DNA of 64,000 nucleotides from Streptantibioticus rubrisoli (GTDB lineage: Bacteria > Actinomycetota > Actinomycetes > Streptomycetales > Streptomycetaceae): assembly GCF_024436055.1 (NCBI RefSeq), contig NZ_JANFNH010000035.1, positions 1-64,000 on the forward strand. Direction: 5' to 3'. The first letter of the stretch is position 1, and the number at the start of each line of letters is the position of its first letter. The translations under genes were made by a program, and so were the position numbers. Under the pieces are notes generated by a model. It searched no databases, was not told the DNA's origin, and worked only from the letters and a program-made list of their open reading frames with translations. Below, in pieces: positions 1 to 61,985 of the stretch.

Positions 1-179
1 GTTGAGGGTGGTGGAGGGCGACGAGATCGGCGCAGCGGCCCGGAGGGCCTCCGTTGAGGGTGGTGGAGGGCGACGAGATCGGCGCAGCGGCCCGGAGGGC
101 CTCCGTTGAGGGTGGTGGAGGGCGACGAGATCGGCGCAGCGGCCCGGAGGGCCTCCGTTGAGGGTGGTGGAGGGCGACG
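1..179. repeat. 52-bp tandem repeat array, three full copies plus a partial fourth
   Basis: Units run 1-52, 53-104 and 105-156, essentially identical, followed by a 23-base partial copy at 157-179. The array may continue left of the window. Read on the minus strand each unit is CACCACCCTC, AACG, GAG, a 12-base palindromic segment (GCCCTCCGGGCC), then GCTGCG. The same architecture occurs singly inside ackA and inside the glycosyltransferase gene at 55078. There are no unique spacers, so it is not a CRISPR array. It lies downstream of the enoyl-CoA hydratase gene. Confidence 0.95.
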
Positions 180-210
180 GGTGGGCTCAGCCGAACTGCC
201 GCTGTGCGGC

Positions 211-6477: not shown

Positions 6478-8283
6478 ATGGGGGACGAAAGAGGCGGGGC
6501 GTGGCGTGCCCGGCGGAGCGCCGCGGAGCGGCGGTCGGCGGTGCGGTCACTGCTGCGGCTGTGGCCGTACGTACGGCCGCTGGCGCCGCGGCTGTTCGGG
6601 TCGATGGCGGTGGCGGTCGGCGCGTCGTGCATGGCGCTGCTCATCCCGCTGGTGCTCAAGTGGACGGTGGACGGGCCGGTCGCGCACCGGGATCCGGGCG
6701 GGGTGTGGCTGGGCGGCGGGCTGGTGCTGCTGCTCGGGCTGCTGGAGGCCGGGCTGTTCGGGCTGCGCCGCTGGCTGACCGCCCGGCCGATGGCCGCACT
6801 TGAGGCACGCATGCGGGCCGACCTCTACCGGCATCTGCAACGGCTGCCGGTCGCCTTCCACGACCGTTGGGGATCCGGGCAGTTACTCTCCCGTGCCACG
6901 GGCGACCTGCAGATCCTGCGGATGTTCCTGGCCTTTCCGCTGGTGTTCCTGGTGGTCAACTCGGCGACGATACTGGTCGGTTTCACCATCCTGCTCACCC
7001 AGCGGTGGACGCTGGGGCTGATCCTGCTGGTGCCCGCGGTGCCGCTGATAGTGCTGTGTACGTACTTCATGGGCCAGTACTCGCTGGCCTCGCGCCGCGC
7101 CCAGGACCAGATCGGCGATCTGACCACGCTGGTCGAGGAGTCGGCGCTGGGCATCCGGATCATCAAGGCGTTCGGGCGACACCGCAGCCAGGGCCAGGCG
7201 TTCCGCCGGGCCGCGCACGCACTGCTCGGCACCGAGCTGCGCAAGGCGCGGCTGCTGGCCGAGGTGTGGCTACTGGTGACGGCGGTGCCGGACGTGGCGC
7301 TCGGGGTGGCGCTGGTGATCGGCGCCGTGCAGGTGTCCGACGGCCAGCTGTCAGCGGGCACGCTGGTGGCGTTCTTGTCCACGGCGCTCGCGCTGCGCTG
7401 GCCGATCGAGTCGCTGGGCTGGCTGCTGTCGATGAGCAGCGAGTCGGCCACCGCGGCCGACCGGTACTTCGAGGTGATGGACACCGAGCTGCCGCCGGAC
7501 CACACCGCCGGGCCGGACGCGGTCAGTCGGGCCGGTGACGGGATCCGGTTCACCGGTGTCCAGTTCCGCTACCCGGACGCCCCGGACGGCACCCCGGACC
7601 TGTTGGCCGGGCTCGACCTGCACATACCCACCGGCCAGACACTGGCCCTGGTCGGCGCCACGGGCTCCGGCAAGACCTCGCTGACCGCGCTCATCCCTCG
7701 GCTGTACGAGGCGACCGGCGGCCGCATCACGCTGGACGGGATGGACATCGCGCGACTGCCGAAGGAGCGTTTGCGCGCCATGGTCTCGACGGCCTTCGAG
7801 GAGCCGACGCTGTTCTCCGCGAGCGTCCGGGACAACGTGTTGATGGGCGCGGAGCAGGCTGGCGAGGCCGATCTGCGGTGGGCTTTGCAGACCGCGCAGT
7901 GCGGTTTCGTGCACGAGCTGCCGCAGGGGGTGGACACCCAGGTGGGCGAGCAGGGGCTGAGCCTGTCCGGCGGCCAGCGGCAGCGGTTGGCACTGGCCCG
8001 CGCGGTGGTGGGCCGCCCGCGCTTCCTGGTGCTGGACGATCCGCTGTCCGCTCTGGACGTGCACACCGAGGCGCTGGTGGAGGGCGCGCTGCGGGAGGTG
8101 CTGGCCACCACCACCGCACTGGTGGTCGCCCACCGGCCGTCCACCGTGCTGCTCGCCGACCGGGTGGCGCTGCTGTCCGGCGGACGCATCGCGGCCGTCG
8201 GCACCCATCACCAACTCCTGGCCGAATGCCGGGAGTACCGCCAGCTGATGTCCGGTGACGCCGACGACAGGAGCGCAGCCTGA
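6478..8283 (+). CDS. ABC exporter half-transporter, degenerate-site subunit
   Basis: A 601-residue TMD-NBD half-transporter with six predicted membrane helices in about residues 20-310 and an ATPase domain at the C-terminus. Walker A is GATGSGKTS and the signature LSGGQRQRLAL is canonical. The residue after Walker B is Asp (VLDDPLSALD) instead of the catalytic Glu, and the Q-loop reads FEEPTLF, with Glu where Gln is normal. These are the marks of the degenerate half of a heterodimeric exporter. The start is the ATG at 6478, preceded by GGAGGGG; a GTG at 6454 has no ribosome site. The stop overlaps the ATG of the partner gene, so translation is probably coupled. The transported compound is unknown. 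Confidence 0.9.
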   Translation: MGDERGGAWRARRSAAERRSAVRSLLRLWPYVRPLAPRLFGSMAVAVGASCMALLIPLVLKWTVDGPVAHRDPGGVWLGGGLVLLLGLLEAGLFGLRRWLTARPMAALEARMRADLYRHLQRLPVAFHDRWGSGQLLSRATGDLQILRMFLAFPLVFLVVNSATILVGFTILLTQRWTLGLILLVPAVPLIVLCTYFMGQYSLASRRAQDQIGDLTTLVEESALGIRIIKAFGRHRSQGQAFRRAAHALLGTELRKARLLAEVWLLVTAVPDVALGVALVIGAVQVSDGQLSAGTLVAFLSTALALRWPIESLGWLLSMSSESATAADRYFEVMDTELPPDHTAGPDAVSRAGDGIRFTGVQFRYPDAPDGTPDLLAGLDLHIPTGQTLALVGATGSGKTSLTALIPRLYEATGGRITLDGMDIARLPKERLRAMVSTAFEEPTLFSASVRDNVLMGAEQAGEADLRWALQTAQCGFVHELPQGVDTQVGEQGLSLSGGQRQRLALARAVVGRPRFLVLDDPLSALDVHTEALVEGALREVLATTTALVVAHRPSTVLLADRVALLSGGRIAAVGTHHQLLAECREYRQLMSGDADDRSAA

Positions 8284-41224: not shown

Positions 41225-42427
41225 GTGACCGCGACCCGCGTCCTCGTCCTCAACTCCGGCTCCTCGTCGGTGAAGTACCAGCTCCTGGACATGGCCAGCC
41301 CCTCGCCCGCCACCACCCTCAACAGAGCGGCTGCGCCGCACAGCGACGATCACGGTTCCCGTCTGGCCTGCGGCATCGTCGAGCGGATCGGCGAGCCCGG
41401 CGGGGTCGCCGACCACGCCGCCGCGCTCAAGCAGGTGGCCGACGAACTGTCGGCGCAGGGGCTGGGCCTGGACTCCCCCGAGCTGGCCGCGGTCGGGCAC
41501 CGGGTGGTGCACGGTGGCACCCGGTTCACCGAGCCGACGCTGATCACCGACGAGGTGGTGGCCGAGATCGAGAAGCTGGTGCCGCTCGCGCCGCTGCACA
41601 ACCCGGCCAACGTCATCGGCATCAAGGTCGCCCGCGAGCTGCGGCCCGACCTGCCGCAGGTCGCGGTGTTCGACACCGCCTTCCACTCGACCATGCCGGA
41701 GGCCGCCGCCCGGTACGCCATCGACCGCGCCACCGCCGACCGGCACGGTGTGCGCCGGTACGGCTTCCACGGCACCTCGCACGCGTACGTCTCCCGGGCC
41801 ACCGCCGCGCTGCTGGGCAAGGAGCCGTCCGAGGTCAACGTGATCGTGCTGCACCTGGGCAACGGCGCCTCCGCCTCGGCGGTGCGCGGCGGGGTGTGCG
41901 TGGACACCTCCATGGGGCTCACCCCGCTGGAGGGCCTGGTGATGGGCACCCGCTCCGGCGACATCGACCCGGCGGTGATCTTCCATCTCGCGCGGGTCGG
42001 CGGGCTTGACGTCGACGAGATCGACACGCTGCTGAACAAGCGCAGTGGCCTGGTCGGGCTGTGCGGTGACAACGACATGCGGGAGATCGGCCGCCGGATG
42101 GCGGAGGGCGACGCCGACGCCCAACTCGCCTTCGACATCTACATCCACCGGCTGCGCAAGTACGTCGGCGCCTACACCGCGGTACTCGGGCGGGTGGACG
42201 CGATCGCTTTCACGGCCGGAGTGGGCGAGAATTCCGCCGCGGTGCGTGAGGCCGCGCTCGAAGGCCTCGAACCCCTCGGCATCGAGATCGACGCGGTACG
42301 CAACGCTGTGCGCGGCAACGTGGCACGGCTGGTCTCCACCGGGACCAGCCGGGTCGCGGTCGCCGTCGTCCCCACCGACGAGGAACTGGAGATCGCGCAG
42401 CAGGCCTACTCGCTGGTCCGCCCGTGA
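41225..42427 (+). CDS. ackA: Acetate kinase with an in-frame repeat insertion
   Basis: 400 residues that convert acetyl-phosphate plus ADP to acetate plus ATP. The N-terminus VTATRVLVLNSGSSSVKYQL is typical, as are HRVVHGG, FHGTSHAYVS, HLGNGASASA and TAGVGENS. Residues 25-43 (SPSPATTLN to SDDH) interrupt the usual passage LLDM(A)..GSRLA(C)G and have no counterpart in the acetate kinases I know. The DNA there, 41297-41353, is a copy of the dispersed palindromic repeat. The frame is intact, so the extra loop is probably tolerated. GTG 41225 is preceded by GAAGGAAG. It is the second gene of pta-ackA and lies 82 bp before pyk. Confidence 0.95.
   Translation: MTATRVLVLNSGSSSVKYQLLDMASPSPATTLNRAAAPHSDDHGSRLACGIVERIGEPGGVADHAAALKQVADELSAQGLGLDSPELAAVGHRVVHGGTRFTEPTLITDEVVAEIEKLVPLAPLHNPANVIGIKVARELRPDLPQVAVFDTAFHSTMPEAAARYAIDRATADRHGVRRYGFHGTSHAYVSRATAALLGKEPSEVNVIVLHLGNGASASAVRGGVCVDTSMGLTPLEGLVMGTRSGDIDPAVIFHLARVGGLDVDEIDTLLNKRSGLVGLCGDNDMREIGRRMAEGDADAQLAFDIYIHRLRKYVGAYTAVLGRVDAIAFTAGVGENSAAVREAALEGLEPLGIEIDAVRNAVRGNVARLVSTGTSRVAVAVVPTDEELEIAQQAYSLVRP
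41297..41353 (+). repeat. Dispersed palindromic repeat inserted in frame in ackA
   Basis: CACCACCCTC (41311-41320), AACA, GAG, the 12-base palindromic segment CGGCTGCGCCGC, then ACAGCG. The palindrome GCGGC, TGC, GCCGC spans 41327-41339. Spacing of all parts equals that of the copy at 56464-56517 and of the tandem array at 1-179. The insert length is a multiple of three (57 bp, 19 codons by my estimate). Confidence 0.75.
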
Positions 42428-49075: not shown

Positions 49076-49345
49076 GGTACTTGGGGGCTCCGCCCCCAAA
49101 CCCCCTGCGGGGCTGCGCCCCCGAACCCCCTTGGGGGCTGCGCCCCCAGGCCCCCCTCGGGGCTGCGCCCCCGGCCCCCTTGGGGCTCCCCGCCGCGACC
49201 CCCTTGAAGGCTCCGCCCCCGGCCCCTTTGGGGGGCTGCGCCCCCGAACCCCTTGAAGGCTCCGCCCCCGAACCTCTTGAAGGCTCCGCCCCCAAACCCC
49301 CGGCTACTTTGGGGGTTTGGGGGCGGAGCCCGCAAAACATCGGTC
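49076..49345. repeat. Array of degenerate 24-30-bp CCCC-GGGGGCTGCGCCCCC repeats
   Basis: About nine copies of a unit like CTTGGGGGCTGCGCCCCCGAAC, each itself a hairpin (GGGGGC, TGC, GCCCCC), fill the 270-bp gap between convergent genes. The last is in the opposite sense (GGGGGTTTGGGGGCGGAGCC). Individual units resemble the solitary hairpins at 1012, 17136 and 61774. No coding frame is supported. The array is likely to act as a terminator cluster or as a local amplification of an intergenic hairpin. Confidence 0.8.
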
Positions 49346-54483: not shown

Positions 54484-55077
54484 CGGCGCGGGTGGGCCGT
54501 CCGACCGGGTCGGCTGCGGTACCGCCTCCGGCGCGGGGTGGGCCGTCCGGCCGGGTTGCGGTGCGGTACCGCCTCCGGCGCGGGGTGGGCGATCCGGCCG
54601 GGTCGGTTGCGGTACCGCCTCCGGCGCGGGGTGGGCGATCCGGCCGGGTCGGTTGCGGCCGGTTCGGCACCGCCGGTCCGCTTCTTCGTGGTTGCTCGCC
54701 GTCGTGGCGGGTCTTCTTTTGGGGCTCCGCCCCAAACCCCGGTGCCGGTTCTAGGGGGCTTCGCCCCCAATCCCCCGCGAAGGCCCGCCGGGGCTTGGGG
54801 CGAAGCCCAAAAAGACCCGCCGCGACGGCGAGCAACCACCACGGCGAAGACCGGCGGAACCCAAACGACCCCGCCCGGGCCTTGGCCAAGCCCACAATGA
54901 TCACCCGGGCTTGGGGCGGAGCCCCAACAAAAAACCCGCCGCGACGGCGAGCAACCACGACGGCGGAGTCCGGCGGAACCGAACGAACCGCAAGCCGCCG
55001 AACCCGCGACCCCCGCCGGAGGCGCCACCGCAACCCCCGAACCCGCGCCCCCGCCGGAGGCGTCGCCGTAGCGCGGG
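54484..55077. repeat. 594-bp intergenic region: 46-bp tandem repeats and composite inverted repeats
   Basis: 54487-54671 holds about four copies of a 46-bp unit (GGTTGCGGTACCGCCTCCGG, then GCGCGGGGTGGGC, then CCGGCCGGG). There follow two copies in inverse orientation (54697-54735 and 54799-54850) of GTGGTTGCTCGCCGTC with a T-run and GGGGCTCCGCCCC, and a third copy at 54900-54969. No frame has a recognisable product and none has a ribosome site. It lies between convergent galE and a glycosyltransferase gene. Confidence 0.8.
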
Positions 55078-56697
55078 CTAGCGCCGGAGACGGCGCCGTA
55101 CGACAGAAAGTGCACCCCGTAGGCCCGGAGCAACGCGGAGGGCCAACGCACCGTCCACCGTGGCGTACGGCTGGACCAGCAGGGCGCCGGAGCGCCTGCT
55201 GAAGACGGCCGCGCGGCGCAGGCCGGTCCTGACCGCCTGAGGGGCGGTGACCGTGTGGCCGCCGTCCGCGAAGGACACCCTCAGCCGTAGGTCGCGGACC
55301 GCCAGGTCCCCCTCGGCCAGTGCCGTGAAGTCGACCGGCACCTCGGCCGACCAGGCCGACCCCTGCGCGCTGAGGCCAGTGGTGTCAGAGGTGACCGTGC
55401 GGCCGGTGTGGCGGTCGACCCATTCGACGTCGACCGCGACCGGCCGAGCCGCCGCCACCCGCCCGTACAGCTCGTATACCCGAACCCGCAGCGTCCCCCG
55501 GACGGGACCGACCGTGAGCAACGCCTCAGCGGCGAGCGGCAGTTCACCGATCGGGCAGGTCACCAGCCCGCCGAGGGCGACCTCCGGCAGGTCCTCGCTC
55601 CACACCGCGCCGGAGGCGTACGGCGGCAGCAGCCGGGCCGGGCGGGCGGCGAGGGCTGCGAGCCGGGGCAGGTCGCGCGGTTCCGGCGCGGCCAGCACGA
55701 CCTGGGCGATGGTCCGCGCGGGCGCCGGTGCGGCGGCGAAGTCACGTTCCTCGAAGCCGCCGAGGTACTCCCGGGCCAGCCGCCACCACTCCCGCCGGTA
55801 CTCGGCGCCGCGCCCGCCGAGCTCACGTACGTACATCCGCACCGAGCGGTCGAGGAAGCTCGCCCGGGCGGCGCTGGCCAGCGTCTTCTCTCCCGCCTCG
55901 GTGTGGATCGCCCCCACCTGGCGGTGGGCCTCGATCCGGGAGCGCCAGTTGTCGATTCCGGCCCGGTCGAGGGAGATCGACAACCGCTTGGCGGCGCGCC
56001 GAACATGCCACACGTACACGGTGTCCGGCACCAGGGCGACCCGCGGCGCGGCGGCCAGCACGCGGGCAGTGAACACGAAGTCCTCGTAGACGAACCGGCC
56101 TTCGGGGAAGACGATGCCGTGCTCGCGCAGGAAGTCCGTGCGGTAGAGCTTGTTGACGCACAACGTGTCGTCCACCAACCGCGGTTCGGCCTCCGGCCGT
56201 TCGACGAGCGCGGGCAGCGCGTACAGCTCGGGCCGCCACAACGTGTCGCGCCCTTCGGGCAGTTCGCGCCGGACGCACTGGCCCGCGGTGACGTCCGCGC
56301 CCTGGGCGCGGGCGGCGGTCAGCAGTGCGTCGACCGCGCCGGGGGGCAGTACGTCGTCGCTGTCGAGGAACATCAGGTATCCGGAGTCGGCGGCGCGGAT
56401 GCCGTCGTTGCGCGGGGTGCCGCAGCCCCCGCTGTTCTCGGTCCGCCGCAGCACGCGCAGCCGGTGTCCCGCCCGGCGCCCACCACCCTCAAACGAGGCG
56501 CCAGGCGCCGCTGCGACCTCGGCGGCCAGCCGTTCCAGTACCTCGCCGGTGCCGTCGGTGGAGCAGTCGTCCACCGCGATCACCTCGGCGACGGCCGGTC
56601 CCTGGGCGAGCGCGGAGCGCACCGCGTCGGCGATGTGCGCGGCGTCGTTGTAGCCGATCACCACGATCGTCACCGCAGGCTGTTCGCTCGTCGTCAT
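55078..56697 (-). CDS. GT2 family glycosyltransferase with an in-frame repeat insertion
   Basis: 539 residues. The GT2 domain starts VTIVVIGYNDAAHIADAVRS, with DDCSTDGTGE and the metal motif FLDSDDVLPPGAVD. Its C-terminal half is beta-rich with a domain resembling that of the GT2 protein at 49346. Residues 61-78 (VAAAPGASF to RRAGH) look like an insertion between LERLAAE and RLRVLRRTENSGG, where homologues usually pass directly. The DNA is a copy of the dispersed palindromic repeat, inserted in the opposite sense relative to the gene compared with ackA. The start is the ATG at 56697 with a poor ribosome site. Confidence 0.85.
   Translation of the reverse strand: MTTSEQPAVTIVVIGYNDAAHIADAVRSALAQGPAVAEVIAVDDCSTDGTGEVLERLAAEVAAAPGASFEGGGRRAGHRLRVLRRTENSGGCGTPRNDGIRAADSGYLMFLDSDDVLPPGAVDALLTAARAQGADVTAGQCVRRELPEGRDTLWRPELYALPALVERPEAEPRLVDDTLCVNKLYRTDFLREHGIVFPEGRFVYEDFVFTARVLAAAPRVALVPDTVYVWHVRRAAKRLSISLDRAGIDNWRSRIEAHRQVGAIHTEAGEKTLASAARASFLDRSVRMYVRELGGRGAEYRREWWRLAREYLGGFEERDFAAAPAPARTIAQVVLAAPEPRDLPRLAALAARPARLLPPYASGAVWSEDLPEVALGGLVTCPIGELPLAAEALLTVGPVRGTLRVRVYELYGRVAAARPVAVDVEWVDRHTGRTVTSDTTGLSAQGSAWSAEVPVDFTALAEGDLAVRDLRLRVSFADGGHTVTAPQAVRTGLRRAAVFSRRSGALLVQPYATVDGALALRVAPGLRGALSVVRRRLRR
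56464..56517 (+). repeat. Dispersed palindromic repeat inserted in frame in the glycosyltransferase gene
   Basis: CACCACCCTC (56481-56490), AAAC, GAG, GCGCCAGGCGCC, GCTGCG. GGCGCC (56497-56502) pairs with GGCGCC (56504-56509). Spacing of the parts equals the tandem array at 1-179 and the ackA copy. The insert is a multiple of three (about 54 bp, 18 codons by my estimate). Confidence 0.75.
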
Positions 56698-61796: not shown

Positions 61797-61985
61797 ACTT
61801 CCCGCCGCGGCGGTGAGCAACCACGGCGTCGCAGCCCGGCGGTGCCGAACCCACCGCAACCCGGCGGAAAAGCGCGCCGCAGGCGGGACCGCAACCCGCC
61901 GATGAAGCGCCGCCGCAGGCGGTCGGCACCGCAACCCGGCCGATAAAGGCCGCCGCAGGCGGGACCGCAACCCCAACGGACCCGT
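61797..61985. repeat. Inverse copy of the composite intergenic repeat
   Basis: CCGCCGCGGCGGTGAGCAACCAC at 61802-61824 is the reverse complement of the TGGTTGCTCGCCGTC word found near 54690. It is followed by three tandem units of ACCGCAACCCGGC with GCCGCAGGCGGGA (61853-61965), the counterpart of the 46-bp units at 54487-54671. No coding frame is supported. It lies between the convergent TetR and icmA genes. Confidence 0.75.

Follow-up and report, generated by a model that had tools for sequence, protein, structure and literature searches.

Bacterial MITEs (ERIC, RUP, NEMIS and others) are non-coding, multi-copy elements that are moved in trans and leave a target duplication, which for several of them is TA. 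REP and REPIN sequences, which occur with RAYT, display a conserved short arm beside a hairpin and form tandem clusters, while MIRU insert at overlapping stop-start codons (ATGA) and carry small open frames. An excerpt of PMC4213456 describes MIRU as short dispersed tandem units, with lengths of 77 and 53 bp between senX3 and regX3, and gives M. leprae and the M. tuberculosis complex as their only hosts. The Rickettsia palindromic elements (RPE) are presented in an excerpt of PMC10969869 as palindromic repeats of about 150 bp that are inserted in frame in unrelated genes.

The window, by which we mean the whole stretch of 64,000 nucleotides that was analysed (bases 1-64000 of contig C33, from a genome of 7.26 Mb in 103 contigs, here called G000 or the own genome), carries copies of a repeat of about 49 nt that resembles each of these systems in part. 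Like MIRU, it forms tandem units roughly in the range of 50-100 bp, here with spacings of 47-57 bp though not only between genes, and at three loci (L240, L242 and L256) it stands in TCATG, which is CATGA on the other strand, the likeness being one of description. Its different length, its covarying hairpin and its many copies inside genes set it apart from MIRU. In-frame insertion in protein genes is shared with RPE, again by description, but the element is only about 49 nt long, has a hairpin at one end only, is accompanied by a 5-bp duplication and belongs to another phylum. Like MITEs it is non-coding and multi-copy, is probably moved in trans and shows a target duplication (5 bp in 7/19 loci, though not at the window copy). 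It has no terminal inverted repeats, duplicates 5 bp rather than TA and is much shorter. In form, as a short arm plus hairpin in tandem clusters, it is like REP/REPIN; unlike these, it lies in frame within genes at 41 of 133 sites and shows a 5-bp duplication, and the Pfam model of Y1 transposases (PF01797) found nothing in G000, G001 or G002. With neither the inverted ends of a MITE nor the transposase and extragenic location of a REP/RAYT system, it is filed here as a short non-autonomous interspersed element. A search of open-licence PubMed Central (topics, arm DNA and peptide strings; titles) found no description of such an element. We consider it, with a probability of roughly 0.7, to be a non-autonomous mobile element of about 49 nt, made of a C-rich arm and a hairpin and copied in trans with a 5-bp target duplication.

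The preliminary description had pointed to a copy of a repeat within a glycosyltransferase gene, at a place where homologues run on directly, and both observations hold. The strings that it named lie at 56480-56515, and the whole stretch (Table 1) is far beyond chance (E 1e-10) under a covariance model from which both gene copies of the window were withheld. From 61 genomes of the family that were searched, the 30 best loci were taken; in an alignment of the own protein with the 29 others, the loop is absent from all 29. Its presence in the own glycosyltransferase and in 0/29 homologues supports the reading as an inserted mobile repeat. At the DNA level the empty site is 48 bp shorter in two sister species, whose glycosyltransferases are 88% and 85% identical to the own protein, and in four further relatives. 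Among the genomes compared, this copy is private to the own genome. The same glycosyltransferase gene in G001 has two units (C22:350132-350233) immediately ahead of its aligned start.

Table 1. Coordinates of the element copies, their parts and the glycosyltransferase host gene in the window.
Feature	Position	Strand	Evidence
Truncated array unit at contig end	1..29	-	Covariance model; same-sequence units near end of contig C91
Array unit 3	33..81	-	Covariance model
Array unit 2	85..133	-	Covariance model
Array unit 1, first full unit (arm CCCACCCGTCGCCC, hairpin GGCCC-TCC-GGGCC)	137..185	-	Covariance model, 70.6 bits
Older copy in ackA (PF00871), sense, reads PSPATTLNR	41295..41343	+	Covariance model, 56.0 bits, E 3e-13; same place in both sister species
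Host gene: family 2 glycosyltransferase with private 16-aa insertion, antisense to element (VAAAPGASFEGGGRRAG)	55153..56697	-	PF00535, E 6.6e-26; empty-site orthologues
Left flank GGTGT, expected place of target duplication; unmatched on right	56463..56467	+	
Element copy in glycosyltransferase gene, 46 nt (CCCGCCCGGCGCCCACCACCCTCAAACGAGGCGCCAGGCGCCGCTG)	56468..56513	+	Covariance model, 46.3 bits, E 1e-10; no loop in 29/29 homologues
Conserved C-rich arm CCCGCCCGGCGCCCACCACCCTCAA	56468..56492	+	Alignments A1 and A2; family logo with sharp 5' edge at CCC
Hairpin GGCGC-CAG-GCGCC	56497..56509	+	Sequence; register as in family stem analyses and model
Right flank CGACC; duplication not readable	56514..56518	+	

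Relative to the 49-nt consensus, the window copy lacks 3 nt of the ACCACCACC run, and its loop is CAG and not of the usual TNC type. The 12-mer GCGCCAGGCGCC alone is unremarkable, with 9 matches in the window at up to one mismatch against 4.76 expected, a number reached in 7/100 shuffles. Searching the own genome with a 101-bp query gave 13 matching places at E<=0.001, the query site itself counted. The 13-mer CCACCACCCTCAA is present in 43 copies and its reversed control in none; two or more of these 43 matches (L014 and L046) come without the rest of the arm. Both gene copies lie on the plus strand of the window, one sense in ackA and the other antisense in the glycosyltransferase, in agreement with the opposite orientations relative to the gene that had been noted. 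Since the same sequence is read on both gene strands and also in non-coding-looking places (e.g. L011, a copy that lies between two genes by eye), it is the DNA rather than a protein loop that is conserved, again as proposed.

Across the family the consensus of about 49 nt reads CCC[R/T]CCCGTCGCCCACCACCACCCTCAA-NNGA, followed by a 5-bp hairpin with a 3-nt loop and then by about 4 nt. The 5' edge is sharp, with three C at 96-99% preceded by C (70%) and G (75%) in 108 upstream contexts of the exact 23-mer, and the 3' side decays past the hairpin in 106 downstream contexts of the 23-mer. Alignment A1 comprises 21 distinct units of the own genome whose rows were picked by arm and not by structure; L014 and L046, which have the 13-mer without the rest of the arm, and repeated units were excluded. 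In A1 the 5-bp stem is kept in 89.3% of cells, and 21 cells are doubly changed against 7.0 in shuffles, with 0/500 shuffles as high. MAFFT misplaced the arm of two A1 units with 3 nt missing, leaving the stem columns untouched. When 120 distinct units were read in a fixed register, at least 4 of 5 Watson-Crick pairs were found in 70, versus 9/360 control positions, and these 70 hairpin units contain 27 different stems and, in 62 cases, a TNC loop. A hairpin in any register is a weak control, with 5 pairs in 114/174 units versus 162/676 control positions, and the pair counts of alignment A2 are circular because its units were selected for intact hairpins, and were not used as evidence.

Folded as single-stranded DNA, the consensus unit is no better than shuffles (z -0.45 and -0.04) and the window copy somewhat better (z -1.58 and -2.55). 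On the opposite strand the TNC loop is C-GNA-G, and an excerpt of PMC4686876 describes DNA mini-hairpins that have a GNA loop and a closing G-C pair as extraordinarily stable. The C-GNA-G loop of the opposite strand therefore suggests that the element may function as single-stranded DNA, the CAG loop of the window copy being of a different kind. Rfam gave no match at window positions 56380-56600 (up to E 5) or, for six loci, on the element itself (up to E 1); an Rfam Scr1601 sRNA match of 117 bits lies at L130:6232-6402, some 2 kb from a five-unit array. One site, before an rnz-like gene (L011, L218 and L195), is common to G000, G002 and G009, one of them having the stem GGCCC/GGGCC and the other two GGCGC/GCGCC, which is possibly a compensatory stem change in place; in G001 (L203) there is a hairpin without the arm.

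The ends of the element were analysed by joining the flanks of 12 own and 20 sister-genome copies without the element and seeking the product in relatives. Among the 12 filled loci with aligned empty sites, the net gain is 54 bp at L250, L251, L253 and L258 (one of the two L251 pairs did not align) and some other multiple of three at L240 (60), L242 (51), L244 (60), L254 (48) and L257 (57). The gains at L241 (59), L243 (49 and 78) and L248 (61 and 98) do not fit, partly because of poor alignment. The modal gain of 54 bp corresponds to a whole number of codons (18) and is read here as 49 nt plus a 5-bp target duplication. When these 12 loci are taken with 7 from an earlier empty-site comparison and the duplications are read by eye, both flanking 5-mers agree with the empty host 5-mer at four or more of five letters in 7/19 loci (L010, L020, L023, L043, L240, L242 and L251), and 12/19 have no clear duplication. 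At 114 sites the identity between left and right flanks peaks at length 5 among lengths 2-11, reaching 0.370 versus a shuffled mean of 0.302; the best of 200 shuffles is higher still (0.374), and the signal is modest perhaps because many copies are old. At L240, L242 and L256 the left flank is TCATG and the right flank TCATG or TCATA, which would represent an ATGA stop-start overlap on the other strand. A target-site duplication at the ends, a feature raised in the preliminary description, is thus readable at other loci of the family and not at the window copy, where GGTGT stands against CGACC.

Coding calls from the longest open frame are unusable in this GC-rich genome and were replaced by the third-position composition of the flanks. 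By this measure, 41 of 133 distinct sites lie in frame between coding flanks (17 sense and 24 antisense); the remainder have flanks in different frames of one strand (5), on different strands (3) or not clearly coding on both sides (84). All but one of the in-frame insertions (40/41) use just two frames, which read PSP[TA]TTL in 16/17 sense cases and EGGGGRR in 24/24 antisense cases, and the two gene copies of the window, which stand outside the 41-site count, use the same two. Judged from CG dinucleotides in the flanks, that codon phase is favoured at only 59-61%. At a phase rate of 0.61, 40/41 has p = 4e-8, and a reduced figure of 29/30, in which 30 is a guess and which was used because orthologous sites may be counted twice, has p = 7e-6. 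Selection on the protein is the plain explanation for this bias, and targeting linked to codon phase the bolder one. Among 183 distinct units, five frames are open in 139, six in 6, four in 33 and three in 5, such that the element is indeed open in both orientations, as had been suggested, for five of the six frames, although all six are open in only those 6 units. The further idea of a sequence adapted to insertion in coding DNA is supported in part. A fitness of the element for genes is supported by its modal 54-bp gain and by the use in 40/41 cases of two of the five usually open frames; that it was selected for this fitness does not follow. The removal of gene-breaking insertions by host selection would produce the same in-frame pattern without any selection of the element, and the 84 sites without clearly coding flanks on both sides also weigh here. 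Taken as a whole, the earlier interpretation is partly supported.

A domain scan of host proteins was positive in 8/9 and identified a histidine kinase, PurK, bPH_11, a NIT-domain protein, a family 4 glycosyltransferase, a Ppx/GppA phosphatase, a sortase and a glutamine amidotransferase, the last of which was taken by eye for PurQ. In the bPH_11 gene (L006:1153-2001; L143, L099, L106, L180 and L182) the element is found at the same or nearby places in loci that span the own genus, Actinacidiphila and Streptomyces, with pyrimidine genes near some of them by eye; these sites represent either an ancient insertion or a tolerant linker that was hit repeatedly. In several Streptomyces (L092, L102, L113, L122, L149, L151 and L177) the element lies directly before a gene starting M[TS]NIPETG, which from our own reading of the sequence we take to be a putative penicillin-binding protein, and the hairpin runs into the ATG. 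A copy in G000 (L042) precedes a similar gene at another distance.

The ackA copy occupies the same place in both sister species, in one of which it is partly shortened, and so probably entered before their split. At the other end of the window, positions 1-185 form a tandem array of the element family, with 3.4 units of 52 bp on the minus strand. The contig starts inside this array. As contig C91 also carries units of this sequence, at 7533-7633 close to its end, C33 and C91 may be neighbours broken by the repeat. Many copies of the element are tandem, and 24 of 58 distinct unit-to-unit spacings of 47-57 bp are exactly 54. Units are nearly identical within an array and their stems differ between arrays, a pattern which fits slippage or unequal crossing-over after insertion. 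The window also contains other GC-rich tandem repeats (54484-54658, 49080-49301, 61853-61973 and 54987-55062; periods of 46, about 25/48/73, 40 and 38 bp).

The distribution of the family was surveyed in 16 genomes using a model built from 34 units, with 150 candidates scored per genome and matches counted at E<=0.01. This gave 78, 92 and 55 matches in the genus (G000, G001 and G002, respectively), 36 and 45 in two genomes of one other genus (G009 and G023), and 13, 8 and 7 in G007, G017 and G033. G003 has 28 weaker matches in the absence of the exact 13-mer and perhaps holds a diverged subfamily. The other seven genomes had 0-2 matches. Across the phylum, a scan with stricter filters and 20 candidates scored per genome, which gives a lower bound, found a match at E<=1e-4 in at least 6 of 296 genomes. 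The exact 23-mer is present in at least 110 stretches from genomes of named species, and the matches listed include Streptomyces, Streptantibioticus, Nocardia, Nocardiopsis, Amycolatopsis, Allosalinactinospora, Actinacidiphila and Glycomyces. The exact 22-mer was not found in a viral contig collection, annotated phages gave no match to the element and plasmids gave one weak match.

Direct support for a mobile element comes from its dispersion, the sites that are empty in relatives, the covarying hairpin, the tandem units and the in-frame copies, together with the 5-bp duplication in part of the loci and the modal net gain of 54 bp. We envisage that an enzyme acting in trans would join the element ends to target strands cut 5 bp apart, whereupon 5 bp of target, often ending in CG, would be duplicated and 54 bp added. 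The 5-bp stagger would suit a reaction of the DDE/integrase type, and the 27 different stems with their mostly TNC loop (C-GNA-G on the opposite strand) suggest that the hairpin may be recognised as a structure. A G-quadruplex formed by the G-rich strand and recognition in the manner of integron attC sites are also conceivable. Tandem growth after insertion would proceed by slippage or unequal crossing-over, and within genes the element would survive as an 18-codon stretch resembling a flexible linker. A short duplication of constant length at unrelated targets is the mark of strand-transfer enzymes (DDE transposases and integrases). DDE transposons normally need terminal inverted repeats, and with its variable stem and no inverted ends the element is a poor fit to an ordinary DDE transposon: in the A2 consensus, the ends CCC[R/T]CCCG and CNGCGGCG, read inward and compared by eye, form no terminal inverted repeat. 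Inspection by eye of the 25 largest of 177 ORF clusters near 110 named copies found no transposase; these 25 reflect shared gene neighbourhoods or widespread families such as ABC ATPases and LacI-like regulators, and 70/177 clusters occur in three or more loci. A full-length partner element may be diverged or lie at a distance.

Other origins can be weighed against this reading. The element might be REP-like and moved as single-stranded DNA by a Y1 (HUH) tyrosine transposase of the RAYT/IS200 type, since a hairpin beside a conserved arm, a stem that tolerates sequence change and a GNA-type loop all suggest single-strand recognition. We regard this as improbable: PF01797 is missing from the search results not only for the three genomes of the genus but also for G007 and G009, all five of which carry 13-92 copies, and it appears in 4/24 genomes, two of which (G010 and G014) have no copy of the element. 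The 41/133 sites in frame in genes also speak against it, and Y1 transposases of the RAYT/IS200 type leave no target duplication. For Pfam-detectable enzymes, a Y1/RAYT mobiliser is largely refuted by the result for the genus. A retroposon, in which a hairpin RNA would be copied by a reverse transcriptase and then integrated, could account for the variable 3' side and sharp 5' side but is very unlikely, given that PF00078 was not found in G000, G002 or G007 and that the constant duplication length would argue against target-primed copying; PF00078 is present in G001, G009 and G023.

It is also unlikely that the copies are old and no longer mobile, kept by selection as RNA or DNA sites, for example at operon junctions, and passed on by inheritance and together with neighbouring genes in gene transfer. 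Some sites are common to several genera in the manner that this predicts, such as that before the rnz-like gene and the L006 gene site with copies at nearby places in L143 and Streptomyces loci, but there are private insertions at sites which are empty in the sister species, the window copy among them. It is scarcely credible that the loop is nothing more than a low-complexity protein insertion rich in Gly and Ala whose likeness to the repeat arose by chance. The genome is GC-rich and the 12-mer alone is not significant, yet this idea is refuted by the E value of the model, by the 29/29 homologues without the loop and by copies on both gene strands and in DNA that looks non-coding.

Building on the reading as a mobile element copied in trans, we tentatively raise a wider possibility that we hold with less than even confidence: an ultra-small class of elements, each with a 28-nt arm and a hairpin encoded as structure but no inverted ends, might be mobilised across the Actinomycetota by an enzyme that reads the folded hairpin and inserts with a 5-bp stagger, the 54-bp step and the two linker frames aiding spread through conserved genes in the form of an 18-codon linker. 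If mobility is accepted, the element would rank with the smallest mobile elements whose target duplication can be read and, on the exact 23-mer matches, would have spread to several families of Actinomycetota. It may also cause breaks in assemblies, as the contig of the window begins inside an array. It would have added linker-like stretches to acetate kinase, glycosyltransferases, PurK, a Ppx/GppA phosphatase and a sortase-domain protein, and two questions would become testable, namely which enzyme moves an element without inverted ends and how proteins tolerate the same 18 codons inserted repeatedly.
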